Shown here one piece after another: positions 2 to 11,528 of a stretch of DNA of 32,066 nt. The notes beneath the pieces were generated by a model that saw nothing but the letters and a program-made list of their open reading frames with translations, was not told the DNA's origin and made no database searches. The position numbers were made by a program, and so were the translations under genes. The DNA lies in assembly GCF_014180685.1 (NCBI RefSeq), contig NZ_JACEHF010000007.1, positions 1 to 32,066 of the forward strand, given 5' to 3'. This DNA is from Nocardioides pelophilus. Lineage in GTDB: Bacteria; Actinomycetota; Actinomycetes; Propionibacteriales; Nocardioidaceae. The first letter of the stretch is position 1. Each line of letters begins with the position of its first letter.

Positions 2-3000
2 GACATCGCCCACCAGATCGGCGCCGTCACCCTCAGCGAGGTACACCGCTTCCGCAACCCCGACGGCAGCCTCAACCACGCCGAAGCGGCCGCCACCCTC
101 GCGCTGCGCGAGGGCGACCCGTCGGCGATCGCGTTCTACGCCGACCGCGGCCGCATCCACGTCGGCGACCTCGGCGCCTGCGCCGACCAGGCCTACGCCG
201 CCTGGGCCACCGACCGGGCCGACGGCACCGACTCAGTCCTGATCGCACCCACCCGAGACCTCGTCGCCGAGCTCAACACCCGCGCCCGCAACGACCGCCT
301 CGCCGGACTCGACGACGCGGAGATCGGGCGCGTCTTGACGCTGGCCGACGGCACCAAGGTGTCCGAAGGCGACCGGATCATCACCCGCGAGAACGACCGC
401 CGCCTGCGCATCAGCCGAACCAACTGGGTCAAGAACGGCGACCGCTGGCACGTCACGAAAGTCAACGCCGACGGCTCCCTGCTCGTCGTCCACGACCACC
501 TCGGCAACACCATCACCCTGCCCGCCGACTACGTCTCCAAGACCGTCCAGCTCGGGTACGCCACCACCGTTCACGGCGCACAGGGCATCACCACCGGCAC
601 CTGCCATGTCGTCCTCACCGGTGACGAAGACCGGAACCTGCTCTACGTCGCGCTCTCGCGTGGCAAGTTCGCCAACCACCTCTACCTCAACGTCGCCAGC
701 GACGGCGACCCGCACAACCTCATCAGGCCGGAGGCACTCATCCCGCCCACCGCACTCGACCGGATCGCCCAGATGCTGCGCCGCGACGGCTCGCCGGTCT
801 CCACGACCACCGCGCTGCGTGAGCAGACCAACCCGCACCAGCTGCTCGGCGACATGGCCGCCCGCTACCACGACGCCGTCACGACCGGCGCCGAGACCCT
901 CATCGGTCCCGTCGGCATGGACAAGATCGACGCCCACGCCGAAGCACTCCTCACCGGGCTCACCGAGGCCCCCGCCTGGCCGACACTCCGCTCCCACCTC
1001 GCGCTCATCGCACTCGACGAACACAGCCCTCTCAAGCTCCTGACCGCAGCAGTCGGCGTCGGGTCGCTCGCCGACGCCCGCGACCCCGCCGCCGTGCTCG
1101 ACGCCCGCATCGACGACCTCGTCGCCGAACTCACGGCCGCCCGGCCACACGATCCCGACACTCCTCCGCCCACCGACGGGCCACTGCCCTGGCTGCCAGC
1201 CATCCCCGCCCGGCTGGCCGAGGCCCACGACTGGGGTCCGTTCGCAGCCACCTACCACCAGCTCGTCCGCGAACAGATCGACGCAGTACGAGCACAGGCC
1301 CACGGATGGACCGGCGCTACCGCGCCCGTGTGGGCACAGCCCTTCCTCGAGGACGAGGACGCCGAACTGCGGGCCGACCTCGCCGTGTGGCGGGCAGTGG
1401 CCGGGACCGATGAGAACGACCTGCGCCCCACCGGCGATCGCACCATCGGCGCCCCCGGCGCCCACCAGACCAAGCTCAACCGGGCCGTCCGCTCGGCACG
1501 TCCGAGCTACCCCTTCTCCCAGCGCACCTGGTACCAGGTGCTGCCCGAGGCTGTCCACGCAGACCCGTGGATCACCCCGCTGTGCCAGCGACTCGCCCGT
1601 CTCGAGCGCGCCGGGCTGCCCGTGACCGACTACATCAAGCAGGCGCTCGCCACCGATCCATCGCTCTCCGGCTGCCACTCCGCCACCGACACGGACACCT
1701 CCGTCGCCGCGCGGCCCCTCCCCGACGAGCAGCAGGCCGCCGCGCTGTGGTGGCGTCTGGTTCCTCACCTCGGCCCGGCCGCACTCGGAGCCGACGAGCA
1801 TTCCGCGAACCTGCTGCAGCCCACATGGCGCACCGCGCTGGCCGAACTCGTCGGCACAACCAAGGCCGACTACCTGCAGAACGCGCCCGCGTGGCCCGCG
1901 CTCGTGGCCGCGGTCGACGAAGCCTGCGAACACCACGGCTGGACCCCGACCGAGATCCTCTCCAGCGCCCTGGCCGGCCTCCCCCAAGACGGCAGCCTCA
2001 CCGGCGTCGAGGTCGCCGACGCACTCGTGCTGCGCATCGCCATGCTCACCGACCAGCCCACAGAACCCCCTATCCACGGCGCCCAGCCAGCGCCGTACGG
2101 CGACGACGACGTTCCCCCGGACCCGGACATGCTGCCCCCCGAGGACGCCGACGCATTCATGGCCGCCTTCTACCGCGACCTACCCGACGACGACAACACA
2201 CCTGCCCTCCACTCCCCCGGCCCGGGCGAGTACCGCGACCTCGCGACCGAGCCGAGCGACTGGGAGCCGCCCATCGACGCCAACGAGCCACCGGCGTACG
2301 ACGACGTTGCCGTCAGCGGCTACCCGTACGTTGACGACCCGTACGCAACGCCGCTGCCGTGGGAGCAGGCCGCCAACGTCACCCCCGAGAACGCCTTCCC
2401 AGACCCGAACCAGCTCCCGGCCGAGCGGATCCACGAGCTCAACCAGCAGGCTATGGCCTACTTCGAATCCTGCTCCCCGCGCTCCTGGGCGCCGGGCTAT
2501 CTGCGGGAGCGGCTGGGAACCGACCTCGCCGACGACCCGAACTACGCCGTCGGATACGCCCCCGGCGGTGGCCGCAGCCTAATGCGCCACCTCACCGACC
2601 AAGGCGCCACCCTCGACGAGCTCGAGCACGCCGGCCTCATCTCCCGGCGCGAACGCGACGACGGCACGACCTACTACCGCGACTTCTTCCGCGACCGACT
2701 CATCATGCCCATCCGCGACCCCCACGACCCGAGCGGGCAGGCCATCCTGGGCTTCGTCGGCCGCCGCAACCCCACCAAGACCGACGACGACTACGCCGGA
2801 CCGAAGTACCTCAACACCCGCACCACCTCGGTCTTCACCAAGGGCGAGGCACTGTTCGGCTACGCCGAAGCGCGCGACCTGCTCGCAGCCAGGGCGCTCC
2901 CGGTCATCGTCGAAGGCCCCATGGACGCGCTGGCAATCACCCTAGGAAGCAACGGCGACGCCGTCGGCATCGCGCCGATGGGCACCGCGCTCACCGTCAA

Positions 3001-3643
3001 CCAGATCCGGCTCCTACGTGCCCACATCGACACGGTCAACGGCCGCGACCGCATCGCCGTCGCCACCGACTCCGACCCCGCCGGATGGACGTCGGCACAG
3101 AAGGCCTTCTGGCACCTCACCGCCGCAGACCTCGACCCCACCCACCTCGACCTACCCGACGGACTGGACCCCGCCAACCTGTTCGAGACCCAGGGAGCCG
3201 CCGCGATCACTGCTGCCCTCGAGAATCGAGCCCCGCTCGGCGACGCGATGATCGACCACCTGCTCCGCACCGCCGGGCACTGGACGGAGACCGACGTCCG
3301 TCAGCAGGTCATCCACCAGGCTGCCCGCATCCTCGCCTCCCGCGGGTCCGAACACTGGCTCGACGGGTTCGAGCATCTGCGCTGCAAGCTCCACTTCGCC
3401 CCGGGCATCCTCGAGCACCAGACCGTCACCGAAAGCATCGAACGCGACCGCAACCGCCCGACCTACGCCCAAGCCCGGATCGACGAGATCAACGCCGAAG
3501 AGCGCAAGAGGACCGCCAAGACCAGCCCGATGTCACGGCGCCGGGCAGCCGAGAAACGGCTCGCAACCACAGCCAGCACGCCCCGACCCGCACCCGATGA
3601 AACACCGACTTCCAGTACCGATCACCAAGGCCCGGCGCGTTGA
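2..3643 (+). CDS. MobF-type conjugative relaxase/helicase fused to a Toprim primase-like domain (5' partial)
   Basis: The reading frame is open from the first bases of the window, so the start and the relaxase domain lie upstream; 1213 residues are visible. The first part is the end of a superfamily 1 helicase: a TVHGAQG motif is encoded near position 566 and a LLYVALSRG motif near 640, as in TraI/TrwC/TraA proteins that nick and unwind DNA during conjugation. After a long Pro/Ala-rich linker, the region from about 2430 resembles the DnaG catalytic core, with EGPMDALA near 2911 and DSDPAG near 3068, the acidic residues of a Toprim fold. The C-terminus is Lys/Arg-rich. Relaxase-helicase-primase fusions are known in actinobacterial mobile elements, so a role in transfer and in priming the transferred strand is the likely inference. 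An internal TTG at 335 is not the start. The helicase and Toprim calls are secure; the relaxase domain is inferred from the family. Confidence 0.8.
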   Translation, partial: DIAHQIGAVTLSEVHRFRNPDGSLNHAEAAATLALREGDPSAIAFYADRGRIHVGDLGACADQAYAAWATDRADGTDSVLIAPTRDLVAELNTRARNDRLAGLDDAEIGRVLTLADGTKVSEGDRIITRENDRRLRISRTNWVKNGDRWHVTKVNADGSLLVVHDHLGNTITLPADYVSKTVQLGYATTVHGAQGITTGTCHVVLTGDEDRNLLYVALSRGKFANHLYLNVASDGDPHNLIRPEALIPPTALDRIAQMLRRDGSPVSTTTALREQTNPHQLLGDMAARYHDAVTTGAETLIGPVGMDKIDAHAEALLTGLTEAPAWPTLRSHLALIALDEHSPLKLLTAAVGVGSLADARDPAAVLDARIDDLVAELTAARPHDPDTPPPTDGPLPWLPAIPARLAEAHDWGPFAATYHQLVREQIDAVRAQAHGWTGATAPVWAQPFLEDEDAELRADLAVWRAVAGTDENDLRPTGDRTIGAPGAHQTKLNRAVRSARPSYPFSQRTWYQVLPEAVHADPWITPLCQRLARLERAGLPVTDYIKQALATDPSLSGCHSATDTDTSVAARPLPDEQQAAALWWRLVPHLGPAALGADEHSANLLQPTWRTALAELVGTTKADYLQNAPAWPALVAAVDEACEHHGWTPTEILSSALAGLPQDGSLTGVEVADALVLRIAMLTDQPTEPPIHGAQPAPYGDDDVPPDPDMLPPEDADAFMAAFYRDLPDDDNTPALHSPGPGEYRDLATEPSDWEPPIDANEPPAYDDVAVSGYPYVDDPYATPLPWEQAANVTPENAFPDPNQLPAERIHELNQQAMAYFESCSPRSWAPGYLRERLGTDLADDPNYAVGYAPGGGRSLMRHLTDQGATLDELEHAGLISRRERDDGTTYYRDFFRDRLIMPIRDPHDPSGQAILGFVGRRNPTKTDDDYAGPKYLNTRTTSVFTKGEALFGYAEARDLLAARALPVIVEGPMDALAITLGSNGDAVGIAPMGTALTVNQIRLLRAHIDTVNGRDRIAVATDSDPAGWTSAQKAFWHLTAADLDPTHLDLPDGLDPANLFETQGAAAITAALENRAPLGDAMIDHLLRTAGHWTETDVRQQVIHQAARILASRGSEHWLDGFEHLRCKLHFAPGILEHQTVTESIERDRNRPTYAQARIDEINAEERKRTAKTSPMSRRRAAEKRLATTASTPRPAPDETPTSSTDHQGPAR

Positions 3644-3673: not shown

Positions 3674-3831
3674 AGGAACAACACCCGCGTGTCGCAATTT
3701 GCCCGATCGAAGGCTCCCAGGGTTCGCCAGAAGGCGTTCTGAGAGCCCGCGTGGACCATCCGGCCCTCCTGCAGGGGTGCGCGCGGCCCCATTCCCGCTC
3801 CCCCGATGATGCTGTCGAGATGCAGCGAATA

Positions 3832-3855
3832 TGAGGCGATCGAAACTTCGCCTCA
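3832..3855. repeat. Inverted repeat, 8-bp arms
   Basis: TGAGGCGA and TCGCCTCA flank an 8-nt spacer. There is no T-tract on either side. Function unknown; it could be an operator or a transcript hairpin ahead of the small zinc-ribbon gene. Confidence 0.4.
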
Positions 3856-4006
3856 AGAAGACTGAATCGGTAGACATTGACGCGTCGGGCGTCCGCGGGA
3901 GAGTCCACCGGATCCGAACTGAGCCGAGCTCGGACGGTGGCATCTGCGCGGGCGCAACGAGTTGTGTCGGATGGTGGGCGGAGTGTCCTCGGAGGAGGTG
4001 ACCACG

Positions 4007-4285
4007 ATGACGGTCAGGCAGCACAGACCCTGCGGCAAGGTGCGCTACACCAGCGAGCGCACGGCGATCCGGAGGGCGATCGCCTCGTCGCGGCACGCGG
4101 GCCTGGCGCTCCGCGTCTACCGGTGTCCTGATTGCAAGGGATGGCACCTGACCAAGAAGCCGACGTGGACCGCCACACATCGACCGCAGCCGGCGGAGTC
4201 GAGCCGGGGACGCAACGCGCTCGGGCACCGGACCGGGTGCTCGTGTGGCCAGTGCGCCTGGCTCGACGTCGAACTCATCGCCTGA
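4007..4285 (+). CDS. Small zinc-ribbon-like protein
   Basis: This 92-residue protein begins at an ATG placed 6 nt after GGAGGAGGTG; earlier in-frame starts lack such a site. A Cys near the N-terminus (PCGK) and a CPDC motif followed by GWHLT suggest a zinc ribbon, and a second Cys pair (CSCGQC) sits near the C-terminus. The pattern CGK..Y.S...A followed by Y.CP.C.GWHLT is, from memory, typical of small orphan proteins on actinobacterial chromosomes and plasmids. Between the Cys groups is a basic helix, so nucleic-acid binding is plausible but unproven. It follows the relaxase on the same strand and lies 78 bp before the Mrr-like gene. No specific function can be given. Confidence 0.65.
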   Translation: MTVRQHRPCGKVRYTSERTAIRRAIASSRHAGLALRVYRCPDCKGWHLTKKPTWTATHRPQPAESSRGRNALGHRTGCSCGQCAWLDVELIA

Positions 4286-4363: not shown

Positions 4364-5365
4364 GTGGACGATCCGGTCGTCGGTGGCAAGAATTCCTGGG
4401 AGATGGTGTTAAGGGTGTCCAACTACAAGTCGGCGGCCACGGAGAGGACCTCCAACGCCCTGCTGATCGTCATTCTTGTCATGGTTGTGGTGTTTGCGGG
4501 TTGGCTCGCGAGCACCTCGAGCAAGGGTGTCGGCGGGGGCGTCGTGCTCTTCATTTGCGGTCTGGTGGGAGGCGCGATCCCCGGTACACTCATCTTCGCC
4601 GGGCTCGATCATGTCCTCGGCGCCAGCGGGCAAGGCGCGAAACCCGATGCTTCAAGGAAGTCGGGCTCGCCGACATCAGGCATTGCATTGGCAAAGCGAA
4701 TCCCTCAGACGAACCCGCGCGTCTGCCCGCACTGCGGACGCGCATCGGCTCGGCGGCTCTCTGGCTTCTGCGAAGGCTGCGGGAGCCTCCTCTACGAGGA
4801 TGGAATCTGGGTAGCAGGAGACATGCGGGACCCAGTAGCGACCTACGTGTGGGACAAGCAGAAGAGGGAGTGGTGGATCCTCACGACCCGAGAGAGGCGG
4901 GTCGAGGACGAGCGCAAGGCAGCCGAGGCGCAGCGCGTGGCGGCCGAGGCCGAACGCGCGAAGTTGGCATCGCGACCTGCCATCCCCACACCTCGCCTCA
5001 TCAGCAGGGCCGCCGAGGCTGAGGAACTCGCTGCCGAGTGGATCCGCTGGATGGGGTTCCCAGGGGCGGCGGTGACACCGGCAGGGACAGATGGCGGAAT
5101 CGACGTGATCGGTCCCGGCGCGAACGGGGTGATCGCCGCACAGGTGAAGTTCGAGGCGGTGCCGGCCGGCCGTCCCAAGCTGCAGGAGCTCTATGGGGCG
5201 GGCCTTGCCGCTGGCGCAACGGTCACTGCGTTCTTCTCCTCGGCGGGGTTCAGCGCGCAAGCGCAGGCGTGGGCGGATCAGGTCGGGATGGCGCTATTCG
5301 AGTTCGCCGTCGACGGCTCCGTCGTGCCCGTCAATCAACGCGGCAGGGGAATCTTCGAAGCGTGA
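4364..5365 (+). CDS. Membrane-anchored zinc-ribbon/Mrr-type restriction endonuclease
   Basis: The protein has up to 333 residues. Domains in order: two hydrophobic segments (about 31-51 and 59-81); a zinc ribbon (Cys121, Cys124, Cys136, Cys139); a charged, probably coiled stretch rich in Ala/Glu/Arg (about 175-202); and a C-terminal Mrr-like PD-(D/E)XK nuclease fold (about 216-332) with GGID (Asp247) and QVK (Gln260, Lys262), the usual D...QxK active site. Mrr-family enzymes cut DNA, often modified or foreign DNA; anchoring in the membrane would place it where incoming DNA enters. The start is uncertain: GTG at 4364, ATG at 4403 and GTG at 4412 are all possible, and none has a clear ribosome binding site. 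Base composition is less GC-rich than the core genes, consistent with transfer. The nuclease fold call is strong; the defence role is inferred. Confidence 0.75.
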   Translation: MDDPVVGGKNSWEMVLRVSNYKSAATERTSNALLIVILVMVVVFAGWLASTSSKGVGGGVVLFICGLVGGAIPGTLIFAGLDHVLGASGQGAKPDASRKSGSPTSGIALAKRIPQTNPRVCPHCGRASARRLSGFCEGCGSLLYEDGIWVAGDMRDPVATYVWDKQKREWWILTTRERRVEDERKAAEAQRVAAEAERAKLASRPAIPTPRLISRAAEAEELAAEWIRWMGFPGAAVTPAGTDGGIDVIGPGANGVIAAQVKFEAVPAGRPKLQELYGAGLAAGATVTAFFSSAGFSAQAQAWADQVGMALFEFAVDGSVVPVNQRGRGIFEA

Positions 5366-5588: not shown

Positions 5589-6767
5589 TTATGGCTGCTG
5601 CGACCATCCTGGCCAGTTGTCGAACCACCGGAACTCCATCGGCGTGAGTTCCTGTTGGGCATGCTCGGCTTTCGCGCCGCCGCGGTCCAACAGGTCGAGA
5701 AGAGAGTCCAGGCGGTCGCTATGCGACGCGATCACCTGGTCAGGGCCGAGTTGCTCCACGGTCACTCGTGCAGTCGACCAGATCGCGGCGACGAACTGGT
5801 GGGAGAAGAGGGCGAGCGGCACCACGTCCATGCCGCTGAAGTGGAACTGCAGCGAGTCGTTCCCACGCGAATCCCTAAAGGTGAGCTCATCGTCGCCGCT
5901 GAAGAACCACTGTTCGGCGAGGTCAAGCTCATCAGTTTGCATGGACGCGCGACGGACCCGCACAGCGAGGAGGCACTTGCTGATGTCCGCACTCTCACCC
6001 TTGTAGAGCGACGGCCGATCCTGACCGCCGGTCACGAATGCCAGCAAGTCTGCGAACTGCCCGAAATCGTTCGCCCTGATCCTCCAGCCCTGGTTCATCA
6101 GGTCGAACAACTGCCACGCGCCGCAGATGGTCGTCAGCCGGACGATCGGGTTCAGACCGAAGGACGCGCCGGTCGCGCCCGGACCGAGGTCAATCAGCCG
6201 ACCGAGCGTGTCATAGCGGTATCGCGGCGGCAGACGGTCGATGACCCCGGGCGCGGACGGGGCGTGAGGCGACAACCTCATGCGCTCCTTGAGTTCGAGC
6301 GCCCACGCAAGTGTGAAGCCAGCGACGAGGTCCGATGGCGTCTGCCAGCCTCTCGGATGGTCTGAGAACACGGGCGAACCAAAGATGCCGTCGGCCTTGC
6401 GCGTCAAAGGGCCGGTCTGCGCCAGCTTGGCCGGGGGCGGCGCTGCCGCTTGGGTGGACCGCTCGGCGCGACGGGGAGCAAGATCGTGAAGCGCCTTCGC
6501 GAGGTCGCTGCCCGGTTGGATCGAGAACGTCTCGTGCTCGCCGGTCTTGAGTTTGATCGACAGCTCATCCGAAACGACGCCGCCTGACACCTCGACGAGA
6601 TCAGCCAGCCAGAGTTGAAGCTCAGTGCGCCGGCTGAAGATCCCGCTCGGAGTGAACGTCAGTGTCCGAGCAGGCCAACTCGTCAGCGCAAGCGTTCCGC
6701 GGATGGTGCGCCCGTTGGCAACGTGACTGGCCGCGACCCTGTGCACGGGCTGGTTACTCGACGTCAC
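5589..6767 (-). CDS. Orphan 392-residue protein, unknown function
   Basis: I do not recognise this protein. It starts at a GTG with AGGG about 10 nt upstream. Residues about 20-95 have alternating hydrophobic strands (GTLALTSWPARTLTF, LWLADLVEVSGG) followed by a helix, as in small PH/GRAM-like beta domains; this is only a structural impression. A Pro/Ala linker follows. The larger C-terminal part is mixed alpha/beta with many Trp and charged residues, no signal peptide and no membrane segment. No catalytic motif stands out. It lies convergent to the Mrr-like nuclease, with about 220 bp between them, and divergent from the truncated Abi-like gene, so it sits inside a likely accessory or defence segment. 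The length and consistent coding make a real gene likely. Confidence 0.6.
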   Translation of the reverse strand: MTSSNQPVHRVAASHVANGRTIRGTLALTSWPARTLTFTPSGIFSRRTELQLWLADLVEVSGGVVSDELSIKLKTGEHETFSIQPGSDLAKALHDLAPRRAERSTQAAAPPPAKLAQTGPLTRKADGIFGSPVFSDHPRGWQTPSDLVAGFTLAWALELKERMRLSPHAPSAPGVIDRLPPRYRYDTLGRLIDLGPGATGASFGLNPIVRLTTICGAWQLFDLMNQGWRIRANDFGQFADLLAFVTGGQDRPSLYKGESADISKCLLAVRVRRASMQTDELDLAEQWFFSGDDELTFRDSRGNDSLQFHFSGMDVVPLALFSHQFVAAIWSTARVTVEQLGPDQVIASHSDRLDSLLDLLDRGGAKAEHAQQELTPMEFRWFDNWPGWSQQP

Positions 6768-6968
6768 GACGCAGAACCCTATTCTCGCGGGGCGGTTACC
6801 GCGGGGGATTTGGCTGACACCGTTCGTAAGAGTCCCCGGGAGTGGTGGGGTTTGAGGGGACCACGGCGGGGCTGCCTAACGTAGGCGGCCATCGGCGGGA
6901 TCTTCGGTGTGTACAGCGGAGCCGCCGGATGGGCAAACTCGTCGGATCGAACCGGCAGACTGAGTCTC

Positions 6969-7462
6969 GTGGCCGAGTACTTCGACGGATGGTTCCGCCC
7001 GACCGAGGTGAACCCGCTGCCGGCGGTCGCGTCGAAGCGCACACTTACCGCTGCGATCTGCGACGCGCTGATCCAGCGTTATACCCGGGTCGCGTTGGAG
7101 TCTGTCCTCCCTGAGGAGCTCCGACTGGAATGGCGGCGCGCTGGTGCAGAGCCCGGCCAGGCCGACACGAAGCGCGACCTCATCACGGGCTACATCGAGG
7201 ACTGGTCGATCGCTCAGTTGGCATCCCTCGCGCAACAACTCAGCACCTACGCCGACATCTACAAGCTCAATCAGGAGCAGTTGGCTTCGCTGGTGGAGGC
7301 GTACGAGCAAGGGGACGGCGTACAGGGCAGAACGAAGAACCTGATCTTCGCCAGCACCGGCCCGAAGCCTGACCTGGTGCTCAGGGATGCGGTCAGCAAC
7401 GACATCGAGGTCGTCGCGAACGGCGACGCCTGTCTGATCTACGACCCGCTCCATCGAGTCGG
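6969..7462 (+). pseudogene. Truncated gene, N-terminal part resembling abortive-infection (AbiJ-like) proteins
   Basis: The sensible protein begins at a GTG at 6969 (MAEYFDGWFRPTEVNP) and continues to about GDACLIYD near 7445. A conserved-looking stretch (KPDLVLRDAVSNDIEVV) lies just before. After this the frame stays open but reads the antisense of the neighbouring M48-like gene, so homology ends at the junction and the C-terminal domain is missing. I associate the segment with the N-terminal region of abortive-infection proteins, but only tentatively. No good ribosome binding site is seen. The end coordinate is the estimated breakpoint. Confidence 0.5.
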
Positions 7463-8246
7463 GGCCGAGCTGCCACTGGGCGTAGTGGACCAGCGAGCCA
7501 GCAAGGCCGGCGTGAACCACGATGCGGTCGGCGTCGCGCTCGACAACGCCACGCCACGCCCGGCCGGCCGCGGGCGCGATGTAGCTGATCGCGACCAGGA
7601 CGCCGCTCGCAACCCCGAGTGCGGGGTCGCCGCCGGGCTGGAAGCCCTGCACGACCACGATCACGCCAACCACGGCCCGCAGATGCCAGGCGAACCCCGC
7701 CGCCGGCACCCACGAGAAGGCGTGCGCGATCTGCCGAACGACGACGTACAGGAGCGTCCAGGGAAACGCCCACAGCCGCGCCGCGAGGTCGAACCGGGCC
7801 GGCCCGACGCGCTGGCTGGCCACCGCGTGACCGATCGCCGCAGCAGCGTCCTCGCGGGTGAGCCGCCGCTCGTAGAGCCCCTGGACCACGTTCGGCTCCA
7901 CGATCACGGTGCGGCGCCCGCTGGGGGAGGCGACCAGACCGCCGGTGTCGATCCCGCGCATCAGCACCCGGCCCGGGGCCAGGTCGAGAGCCTTGAGCAG
8001 GGCCAGCGTCGGCGCGAGGGTTGCGCGCTCTCCGGGGCGTAGACCGCGGGCGAACCCGAAGACCCGCGCAGCGGGGGGCTCCCACAGCCCTGTCGCCAAG
8101 ACAAGTGAGACGACGAGCGTGGCCGCGAACGCGGCAACCAGGCCGGCGCCGGGCAGGAAGCCAAGGCCGATGATCGCGAGGAAGCTTCCGGCGAGCGCGG
8201 CCGGGACGACCGCGAAGAGGCGGAGGATCTTGGTCGACGTTCGCAT
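7463..8246 (-). pseudogene. Truncated M48-like membrane metallopeptidase homologue with degenerate zinc motif
   Basis: Translation starts at an ATG behind a strong AAAGGGAGGTGAG site. The N-terminus has two hydrophobic helices (about 8-30 and 35-52); further hydrophobic stretches follow near residues 160-175 and 190-230. Where M48/HtpX proteases carry HEXXH there is IGHAVASQ, which lacks the Glu and second His; a later ERDAD resembles the third zinc-ligand motif. Recognisable sequence ends near 7465. Beyond it the frame remains open to 6876 but is antisense to the Abi-like fragment. It is therefore both catalytically degenerate and 3'-truncated. The family call is moderate and rests on topology plus the ERDAD motif. 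Confidence 0.5.
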
Positions 8247-8635: not shown

Positions 8636-9691
8636 TCAGCGGCCCGGCGCCGACGATGCTGGGCCGGTTTCTTCGATGCCCGGCCCCCGCCGGCGGTGGT
8701 CGTGACTGCTGCGCTCGTGTGCGGTGGTGTCGCGCAGCGCCGCGTGCTGCATGAGCGCCTGTGCTGCGACTGGGGCTGCCTTGTCCCATACGGCCGGGTC
8801 GATGGCCTGCTCCAGGGCCGTGGCGACCATGTCGGCCAGCCGGTCGCCCTCAGTCATCTGGTCGAGCGCGGTCCAAGCCTTGGCCCCCTTGCCGTCCAGG
8901 AACGAGCTCAGCGCGAGCATCGTCGCCGGGCTGTCGCGAACCTCCTCGGGGGCCCGACGTACGAGGTCTTGCCAGAAGTCGGAGAACGCGGGCGCGTTCT
9001 CTCGGCTCATCCTGAACACGGCGGCGTCGCGGGCGCCGCTGTCGTGGATGATCGCCAGTACGCGAGCAGCAGCATCGTCCTCGAGGTACTTCCCGGTCTC
9101 GAGGAACCCGTCGAGGCACGACCTCAGCCACCTGACCTCCGCGACGTTGGCGGAGGTGTCCATGTCGAGAACCCGCGCCTCCGCTGCGACCAGGTGTTCG
9201 GCTACTCCCGACGGATCACCTTGCATCGCGGCCGCGAGGTCCTCCCGGCGGCCGGTGGGGATCGCTCGGCCCATGAGCGCGAACTCCGCGTCCACGCGGT
9301 CACGCACGACCGGATCCACGGTTCCGCGGGAGTCGTTGAGGACGTCGTACCACTGGTCGCCCTTGACCCACAGCATCGGACCGATCTCCGGCCCACCGCC
9401 GCCGTAGTTCAGAGTCGCGCTCAGCGACGTCAGTGCCTCGAGGCAGTCATAGCCCTTCTCGCCGTAGGCGACCAACGCGAGGCGGCGGACCGGGTGGCGG
9501 TGGAGGTAGACGTCGGAGAGCTGCTGGAGAAGCTGCTCCATCCCCTCGGGCGAGTGCGGGAGGTCGATCCGGGAGTGCGGACCGCCGCCGACGCTCACGC
9601 AGACCAGGCTGGATTCCGGATGGAACCCCATGAGGTGACGGATGTAGGAGATCAGCTCGTCGTGCGAGCGGATCGTGCGCGTGTCAGTCAT
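8636..9691 (-). CDS. DUF4192 family protein
   Basis: This is a 351-residue protein whose N-terminus carries the family hallmark LMGFHPESSLVCVSVGG (about residues 20-36), followed by an alternating strand/helix fold with VALVAYGEKG-like sequence near residue 70. DUF4192 proteins are widespread in actinobacteria and on their mobile elements; their function is unknown. The ATG has an AGGTGG site about 9 nt upstream. The last 30 residues are Arg/Ser/Gly-rich and look unconserved. It forms a leftward pair with the 54-residue gene. There are no membrane segments. Confidence 0.75.
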   Translation of the reverse strand: MTDTRTIRSHDELISYIRHLMGFHPESSLVCVSVGGGPHSRIDLPHSPEGMEQLLQQLSDVYLHRHPVRRLALVAYGEKGYDCLEALTSLSATLNYGGGGPEIGPMLWVKGDQWYDVLNDSRGTVDPVVRDRVDAEFALMGRAIPTGRREDLAAAMQGDPSGVAEHLVAAEARVLDMDTSANVAEVRWLRSCLDGFLETGKYLEDDAAARVLAIIHDSGARDAAVFRMSRENAPAFSDFWQDLVRRAPEEVRDSPATMLALSSFLDGKGAKAWTALDQMTEGDRLADMVATALEQAIDPAVWDKAAPVAAQALMQHAALRDTTAHERSSHDHRRRGPGIEETGPASSAPGR

Positions 9692-10620: not shown

Positions 10621-11058
10621 CTACACAATCCGTTCGCCCCTGGCGGCTACGCACCTGTGGCAGCTGCGGCACGCACACCAAACCCCTGCTCGAAGGCGAT
10701 CCGCTGTCTTTGCGACGGCCGCTGGCACCCCCGGCCGGCGGGGTTCTCGCACCTCGCCGGGCCTGCGGATTTCTGCGCGACGCTTCCGCTGGGCGTAGGC
10801 CAGGAGGACGATCTCGGTCTCGCGGACCAGGTAGGCGATCCGATACGGATACCCCTTGACCAGCACGAAAAGGTCTCGTCGCCTGTCCAGCCTGGGAATG
10901 GCCTGTGCGACCGCCGGCCAGGCACTGATGTCAGCGCGCGCCGCTTCCGCCCGGTCGATCAGGGCCGGACCAAGACCCGTCTCGAGGTCCTCTCACCAGC
11001 GCACAGCCGCGTCGAACTCCGCGCCCGCCTCCGGGTGCTCACGTTGCGGAAGACTCAC
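10621..11058 (-). pseudogene. ParE/RelE-type toxin gene interrupted by an in-frame TGA
   Basis: Read leftwards from a GTG at 11058, the product begins SLPQREHPEAGAEFDAAVRW, then meets TGA at 10993-10995, and continues in the same frame with EDLETGLGPALIDRAEAARADISAWP and LVKGYPYRIAYLVRETEIVLLAYAQRKR (to about 10783). This is a RelE/ParE toxin fold, in which W-Y-E is expected at the stop position, so a Tyr codon appears to have become TGA. After QRKR the usual short HQRR-PGYW ending is replaced by unrelated sequence up to a stop at 10621. The GTG overlaps the antitoxin stop (GTGA). The toxin is not expected to be made in full. Confidence 0.65.
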
Positions 11059-11305
11059 GCGGGCCGAGCGGCCAGTTCGCTTCGGAGCCGTGCGTAGTGC
11101 TTCGTCAGCGTCGATCAGCTCGCCACGATCGGCCAGCACGTCATCAACGTGCCGCGCGATCTCAGTCGCCCAGGCGCCATAGATCGCTGTCTGGTCCTCG
11201 GCTGATCCCGGCAGACTGGCGGGCAGGGCGCGCGCAGCAGCGGCTCGATCGTCCAGATCGAGAGCACGACCCGCCTCGAGGGATCGCGGCTGCGTCCGTT
11301 GCCAT
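11055..11305 (-). pseudogene. Antitoxin gene with two single-base frameshifts
   Basis: From an ATG at 11305 the reading is MATDAAAI, then a frame change restores LEAGRALDLDDRAAAARALPASLPG...AWATEIARHVDDVLADRGELIDADEA, and a second change restores YARLRSELAARPA and a TGA at 11055-11057 overlapping the toxin start. Both changes fit one extra base: in the GGG run at 11280-11282 and near 11097. The restored product matches addiction-module antitoxins of the PF09720 type that precede ParE/RelE toxins. As sequenced, no intact antitoxin can be made. Sequencing error could explain one lesion but less easily both, plus the toxin stop. Confidence 0.65.
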
Positions 11306-11361
11306 GCGTCCCAATGTACGGCTCGCCCGGAGCCGCGGAACTCTGACATTCCCACCGTCAA

Positions 11362-11401
11362 TCTGGCACCAATCTGGCACCACGGCTCCGTTCTGGCACC
11401 A
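11362..11401. repeat. Three direct copies of TCTGGCACCA
   Basis: Perfect 10-mers begin at 11362, 11373 and 11392 (spacings 11 and 19 bp), about 55-90 bp from the 3' end of the tRNA-Ala gene. Regular spacing near one helical turn beside a tRNA gene resembles recombinase or excisionase arm sites, but no binding evidence exists. Confidence 0.6.
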
Positions 11402-11411
11402 CCGATCGCCA

Positions 11412-11450
11412 CTCAAAACGAAAGAAACCGCAGTCTGACCTGCGATTTCT
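11412..11450 (-). terminator. Intrinsic terminator of tRNA-Ala
   Basis: Arms 11423-11433 and 11440-11450 form an 11-bp stem with one G-U pair and a 6-nt loop. On the leftward strand it is followed by TTCGTTTT. It begins 3 nt after the CCA end of tRNA-Ala, so it probably ends that transcript. Confidence 0.75.
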
Positions 11451-11452
11451 CG

Positions 11453-11528
11453 TGGTGGAGCCTAGGGGACTCGAACCCCTAACCCCCTGCTTGCAAAGCA
11501 GGTGCGCTACCAATTGCGCCAAGGCCCC
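11453..11528 (-). tRNA. tRNA-Ala (anticodon TGC), CCA encoded
   Basis: The leftward strand folds as a cloverleaf with acceptor GGGGCCT/AGGCTCC containing the G3-U70 pair that identifies alanine tRNAs. The D arm has AATTGGTAGC, the anticodon loop is TTTGCAA (TGC), and the T arm is GGTTCGAGT. Position 73 is A and is followed by an encoded CCA. It follows tRNA-Ile and the DLW-39 gene, as is usual downstream of gyrA in this group. Its 3' end faces the accessory region, making it a plausible integration site. Confidence 0.95.

Follow-up and report, generated by a model that had tools for sequence, protein, structure and literature searches.

SNIPE (DUF4041 plus GIY-YIG) is a single protein that carries a membrane anchor at its N-terminus, binds DNA with its middle domain and ends in a GIY-YIG nuclease. 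In the accessible part of its description, SNIPE deprived of its anchor is toxic through its nuclease, the tether prevents the cutting of host DNA, and SNIPE homologues differ most in the N-terminal region, with one predicted transmembrane helix in 59% and two in 7% (PMC13190303). Mrr domains are known effector modules that can be exchanged, and the accessible portions of two reports describe their fusion to a beta propeller (PMC9519451) and to a STAND NTPase (PMC9122126). No account of membrane-tethered Mrr nucleases was found in the open-access literature searched, part of which was available as excerpts.

The window, i.e., the whole 32,066-nucleotide stretch of DNA analyzed here, comes from a soil actinobacterium and contains a nuclease gene that adjoins a conjugation gene. 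The preferred reading, to which about an even chance is given, is that this gene on its own encodes a nuclease that is tethered to the membrane and acts on DNA as it comes in, similar to SNIPE in its working but based on an Mrr domain. The fold, the catalytic residues, the tether and the mobile setting are predicted from sequence and structure models, and a role in defence is inferred.

The gene and its predicted product

The nuclease gene is one unbroken forward-strand frame of 333 codons with a GTG start, as given by the open reading frame and its translation. Its features are the following:

4364..5365 (+), gene of the Mrr-type, putatively membrane-tethered nuclease (open reading frame, Mrr_cat match, GC by codon position)
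4403 (+), alternative start, an in-frame ATG (translation)
4457..4513 (+), predicted membrane helix 1, residues 32-50 (hydropathy 2.80; AlphaFold2 helix 11-51)
4541..4597 (+), weaker hydrophobic segment 2, residues 60-78 (hydropathy 2.29)
4724..4780 (+), four-Cys ribbon motif, C121, C124, C136 and C139 (sequence)
4832..4969 (+), predicted long charged helix, residues 157-202, with 11 K/R and 9 D/E (AlphaFold2; charge count)
4973..5362 (+), Mrr-type PD-(D/E)xK domain, residues 204-333 (alignment; fold matches)

In every third of the gene GC is higher at the third codon position (0.755/0.806/0.785) than at the second (0.509/0.548/0.562), and thus the N-terminal part looks coding too. When the window protein is shuffled 20,000 times, 29 of the shuffles attain the hydropathy peak of helix 1 and 8 show two separate peaks that are 2.29 or higher. 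AlphaFold2, run on 30 rows (the window protein and 29 homologous stretches), produced a model with a whole-protein mean pLDDT of 77 and a pTM of 0.54, in which the later portion of the long helix is modelled well and the blocks 31-50 lie at pLDDT 88-91. Residues 55-112 remain below pLDDT 50, so that the second membrane helix is a prediction from hydropathy. Of the two N-terminal membrane helices proposed in a preliminary description of this DNA, the first is therefore backed by both hydropathy and model, and the second by its hydropathy but by no confident model. Four positive and four negative charges precede helix 1, one positive charge lies in the loop, and three positive and one negative follow hydrophobic segment 2. 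With two membrane helices the nuclease would lie on the same side as the N-terminus, a side that is taken here to be the cytosol.

The two CxxC knuckles fit a zinc-ribbon motif, and the pattern C..C-x(8-30)-C..C appears in one of 20,000 shuffles of the window protein. The four-Cys ribbon of the preliminary description holds at this level, but two Pfam ribbon models score below their cut-offs (13.3 and 13.5 bits vs. 25.4 and 27.3), and the zinc ribbon is a motif call made on the sequence. The sole NCBIfam match, the gyrase inhibitor YacG (residues 111-136), reaches 14.3 bits against a cut-off of 79 and was set aside as a ribbon resemblance. What had been described as a charged coil is recovered by AlphaFold2 as the helix 157-202.

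The C-terminal domain matches Mrr_cat (PF04471) with 41 bits, above the curated cut-off of 21, and in the alignment the catalytic D..(D/E/Q)xK and the glutamate of helix 1 of the domain are all kept (E220, D243, D247, Q260, K262 and Q274). The domain is modelled at pLDDT 93-98, and the 10-residue blocks from 161 to 333 at 83-98. In a fold comparison covering residues 206-333, the best solved structure found by Foldseek is AF1548 (1y88; E 2.7e-4), the sole one of 409 with E ≤0.001, and a second comparison gives it a Z of 12.2 and an rmsd of 2.7 over 104 residues with 20% identity. Further matches include the Can2-type nuclease 8bao (Z 10.5), EndoMS and its relatives (Z 9.8-10.2) and, among restriction enzymes, MspJI (4f0p, Z 9.2) and AspBHI (4oc8, Z 8.7). 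The modelled fold is an ordinary PD-(D/E)xK or restriction endonuclease fold. The intact D...QxK Mrr fold and the residue numbers Asp247 and Lys262 of the preliminary description are thus borne out. By profile, residues and predicted fold the window protein appears to be an Mrr-type nuclease, which would cut DNA. PADLOC adds weak matches of the Mrr part to PDC-S02 (E 1.1e-6) and mREase_IV (E 5.4e-6). Sequence searches of solved structures returned, up to E 1, six matches for profile A1, all of them autotransporter chains, and two ribosomal proteins for the full protein, none of them relevant.

Relatives of the nuclease domain

Homologues with E ≤0.001 are found in 19 of 198 genomes of the family, 28 of 215 of the genus and 38 of 391 of the order, own genome included, and a domain profile applied at 1e-8 has matches in 59 of 394 genomes of the class. 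Occurrence is patchy. The nuclease domain is also encoded on 30 of 72,556 plasmid records, none at least 60% identical, and the full window protein has no match among 50,697 phage records and no PHROG match up to E 0.001. In a single-protein scan with the full protein, a pattern was matched by 64 stretches of genome contigs, none of which encoded a relative. Four of the 394 class genomes contain a match to the 204-residue N-terminal half, namely its own and three with short ribbon-region stretches (E 3.5e-4 to 5.3e-4, one interrupted by two stops) that were not accepted as relatives; L040/L085, which matches query residues 91-154, was likewise dismissed, as it has several CxxC pairs and no nuclease. 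The N-terminal half is without a convincing relative in the 394 class genomes, and conservation therefore lends no support to anchor or ribbon.

The architecture around the domain was surveyed in 87 distinct domains, which are search returns rather than a random sample and from which identical domains and the window's own copies had been dropped; a hydropathy threshold of 1.7 and the first start codon were used. D..QxK is kept in 53 of the 87 and lost in 34, including L110, which was scored as degenerate and where the alignment may be shifted. The losses fall mostly in a same-genus and a Streptomyces clade, and the expectation that most homologues would retain the catalytic residues was correct. 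Hydrophobic segments outside the domain are present in 24 of the 53 D..QxK homologues vs. 1 of the 34 degenerate ones, and among these 24 they lie before the domain in 14, after it in 12 and on both sides in 2. The remaining 29 of the 53 have no such segment, which indicates that the family can do without an anchor. At least two CxxC pairs occur in 23 of the 34 degenerate homologues and, among the 53, in the window protein only. On the domain tree (77 rows and 126 columns, with many forks unresolved) the anchored label changes nine times, six of which are forced by well-supported branches. The window protein groups with its two nearest sampled relatives, L002 and L003 (support 99/92), neither of which is anchored, so that its anchor and ribbon either joined the domain after this split or were lost twice. 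As judged from these sequences, the nuclease domain is a shuffled module, around which membrane anchors seem to have been gained or lost many times.

Among the degenerate forms, two clades are conspicuous. Nine near-identical relatives of the same genus (L025-L027, L029, L030, L032, L033, L035 and L037) have the catalytic lysine replaced by V or M, together with D243 replaced by A and Q274 by C, and their Mrr-like domain is conserved and probably inactive. A well-supported clade of 22 rows (L101-L108 and 14 of the loci L180-L195), which belongs to one other family and is Streptomyces where named, has K replaced by D; in most of its members the domain is preceded by two CxxC pairs with a spacing of some 49 residues, a ribbon joined to a probably inactive nuclease fold.

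The genes that surround the homologues give a mixed picture. A MobF relaxase is present in 4 of 42 homologue stretches (a number that includes one stretch without homologue and one duplicate). The four homologues concerned (L067, L076, L079 and L081) form one subclade without transmembrane segments, and their MobF differs from that of the window. TrwC (MobF) lies within 10 kb in 4 of the 27 homologue-bearing genomes vs. 0.19 expected; counted as one event for the four-member subclade, the proximity has a chance of 0.17. The L068 homologue has a defence gene on either side, one for PDC-S37 (1215 bits) and the other for a GmrSD-type HEC-05 protein (699 bits), the L110 fragment adjoins a type ISP restriction-modification gene, and the neighbours in L058 include a Mutator transposase as well as a type III/IIG-like helicase protein. 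Integrases were seen by eye at ~11 kb from the homologue in G087 and at ~2 kb in L066. In nine annotated regions, the plasmid copies are accompanied by recombinases and transposases, by one HNH and one SIR2 protein, by a cytosine methyltransferase together with a GIY-YIG protein, and by numerous hypothetical genes. In contrast, ribonucleotide reductase genes are found at a distance of 1-3 kb from L054 and L065, the L055 homologue stands beside oxidoreductase and dehydrogenase genes, and NrdR is also among the neighbours in this group of three loci. Such housekeeping surroundings argue against a uniform defence context, and the defence or mobile setting foreseen for the homologues therefore applies to part of them, i.e., those on plasmids or near relaxases and defence genes.

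The accessory segment and its conjugative setting

The first base of the window is also the first base of a 62,151-base contig, and the nuclease gene follows 0.7 kb behind a MobF relaxase-primase that is cut by the contig end. Outside the nuclease gene, the following features extend from there to the chromosomal side:

2..3643 (+), MobF relaxase-primase, 3' part, cut by the contig end (TraA and DnaG families)
3807..3882 (no strand), conserved pair of inverted repeats behind the relaxase (blastn and side-by-side letters)
5589..6767 (-), orphan gene, also in the accessory segment (without a match in the three family libraries)
6909..7440 (+), AbiJ_NTD3-like gene, 5' part, right end approximate (PF18860; identity to L136)
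7453..8246 (-), membrane peptidase-like gene, 5' part, left end approximate (frame and GC by codon position)
8636..9691 (-), DUF4192 gene (PF13830, E 3.5e-34)
11453..11528 (-), tRNA-Ala (tgc), chromosomal side of the segment (ARAGORN)

Up to positions 3674-3675 the relaxase is 87.1% identical in DNA to pNOCA01 and 85.3% to pTC1, both typed as conjugative. DNA similarity to conjugative plasmids ends right behind the relaxase stop, save for a 70-base element at 3807-3882. This element, about 160 bases past the stop, consists of two small inverted repeats that also occur at L111 15478-15553, L128 808-872 and L132 718-784. The letters of the first repeat are kept, and both arms of the second change together between the window and pNOCA01, for which reason its pairing seems to be kept; the pair might serve as an oriT, as a terminator or as a regulatory hairpin. 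Between relaxase and nuclease, 3962-4285 (+) encodes a small protein with two CxxC pairs that has no match in Pfam, NCBIfam or PADLOC. Twelve stretches of 4-14 kb behind close relatives of the window relaxase were examined (L127 repeats L111), and a relative of the nuclease (E 0.01) is encoded in none of the 11 distinct ones, which argues that the nuclease is not a fixed part of the element. As read from the sequence, the nuclease gene sits in an accessory segment beside a conjugation gene.

The orphan gene announced nearby is indeed without a family in Pfam, NCBIfam and PADLOC up to E 0.1. As to the Abi-like fragment, its AbiJ_NTD3 match (20.1 bits) lies below the cut-off of 32.5, but the stretch recurs behind the same-type relaxase of G207 (L136 4511-4972) with 48% identity over 159 residues. 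The opposite-strand membrane protein has no Pfam match and is, by eye, presumably M48-like. At about 7440-7453 the truncated 5' parts of these two genes run into each other tail to tail, as a single deletion would leave them, and with two of its genes cut off the accessory segment may be decaying.

Further along, a small HTH_17 protein is encoded behind the DUF4192 gene. DUF4192 also occurs within 8 kb of the nuclease homologues in L058, L076, L079, L081 and L196 (the last by annotation). Beside the tRNA-Ala, 10621-11412 (-) looks by eye like a broken toxin-antitoxin-like pair, and 10621-10866 has no Pfam match. A chromosomal run starts at 11453 with tRNA-Ala and tRNA-Ile, followed by a gene that is conserved in all 20 relatives that were searched. 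In 7 of 12 same-genus loci the similarity ends at 11452-11455, among them L142, whose sequence itself stops at that point; in 3 it ends at 11414-11422, and in 2 it does not extend as far as the tRNA-Ala. A 28-base pattern beside the tRNA-Ala, distinct from the tRNA end itself, has no second copy in the genome. The segment may have integrated at this tRNA.

Possible working and comparison with known systems

In the proposed mechanism, one or two N-terminal helices would hold the nuclease to the cytoplasmic membrane, on its inner face. The charged helix and the four-Cys ribbon, which lie between anchor and nuclease, could be in contact with DNA, with a partner or with another copy of the protein, and the C-terminal Mrr-type PD-(D/E)xK domain would cut DNA. 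The anchor would keep the nuclease off the nucleoid and at the point where phage, plasmid or conjugated DNA arrives. Placed at DNA entry, the nuclease would owe part of the self/non-self decision to its location, as has been shown for SNIPE. As cargo of a conjugative element it might serve both host and element against competing DNA. Cytosolic orientation, DNA cutting, action on incoming DNA and defence are all expected features of this mechanism.

The same protein could instead be a modification-dependent (type IV) restriction enzyme, in which the ribbon or the long helix reads a modification or sequence and the anchor only limits self-damage. Mrr-type domains are, in the available part of the literature, the cutting part of EcoKMrr and of the MspJI family (PMC3874153), and MspJI and AspBHI being among the best solved fold matches, as well as the weak mREase_IV match, agree with this. 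However, searches of Pfam, NCBIfam and PADLOC reveal, up to E 0.1, neither Mrr_N nor an SRA-like or other known DNA-reading domain, and according to the accessible part of the same review, similarity between nucleases does not determine which modification they prefer (PMC3874153). The type IV reading is considered unlikely. A role as an exclusion device of the conjugative element, directed against rival plasmids or elements entering by conjugation rather than against phages, would fit the relaxase 0.7 kb upstream, the subclade of homologues that in 4 of 27 genomes has a different MobF gene no more than 10 kb away, and the presence of relatives on plasmid but not phage records. It would be less easily reconciled with the 11 related-relaxase stretches that encode no relative, and is regarded as unlikely.

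Repair nucleases and junction resolvases are found among the PD-(D/E)xK fold matches, and with the housekeeping neighbours of L054, L065 and L055 this leaves a small probability for a non-defensive upkeep enzyme of the chromosome or the element that would, for instance, repair or process membrane-near DNA; patchy occurrence (28 of 215 genus genomes), shuffled architecture and plasmid carriage speak against such a function. Finally, the gene might be a relic, an intact-looking frame of no present function in a decaying segment, given that both the AbiJ-like gene and its opposite-strand neighbour break off at ~7440-7453 and the N-terminal half has no relative. This is very improbable for a frame that is unbroken, has coding-like GC throughout and keeps six of six examined active-site residues.

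The preferred reading of a membrane-tethered nuclease acting on incoming DNA can be extended, tentatively and with less than an even chance of being right, to Actinomycetes in general. In these bacteria Mrr-type domains would have been repeatedly anchored before or after the domain and spread by plasmids and by conjugative elements, forming a widespread class that tells self from non-self DNA by its place of entry, a PD-(D/E)xK counterpart of SNIPE with many origins, of which the window protein would be a member with a private anchor and ribbon. If so, more than one nuclease fold would have arrived at membrane tethering as a general means of distinguishing entering DNA from that of the host, and an unstudied pool of such proteins would exist in Actinomycetes. 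The existence of close relatives with and without anchors in one domain family makes the role of the anchor testable by swaps of N-terminal halves.

Several known systems share part of this architecture. Kiwa and Zorya are also membrane-tied defence systems but, in the accessible part of their description (PMC12904381), consist of several genes with separate membrane and effector proteins, whereas no partner gene is evident at the window locus. The Mrr and MspJI type IV enzymes have Mrr_cat with D..QxK, and MspJI and AspBHI resemble the window domain in fold; the window protein differs in lacking a known reading domain and in having a membrane anchor instead. PDC-S02, a single-gene phage defence candidate of PADLOC, matches the Mrr part with four models (E 1.1e-6 to 0.012), but the match covers residues 215-309 only and PDC-S02 is itself a candidate family. 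The closest solved fold, 1y88 (AF1548) of Archaeoglobus, aligns to residues 215-322 only and bears the PDB title of a protein of unknown function. SNIPE, as far as its available description goes, has its overall plan in common with the window protein: a single protein with an N-terminal anchor, a long helix in the middle, a C-terminal nuclease and N-terminal regions that vary, the anchor of the window protein being recognized from hydropathy (2.80 and 2.29). The nuclease of the window protein is, however, Mrr-type PD-(D/E)xK with no GIY-YIG match, there is no DUF4041 match up to E 0.1, and a four-Cys ribbon and two hydrophobic segments are present; lacking GIY-YIG and DUF4041, the window protein is not a SNIPE. 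SNIPE is an anti-phage protein, and the window protein, whose part in defence is putative, likely works like SNIPE and is built from another nuclease.
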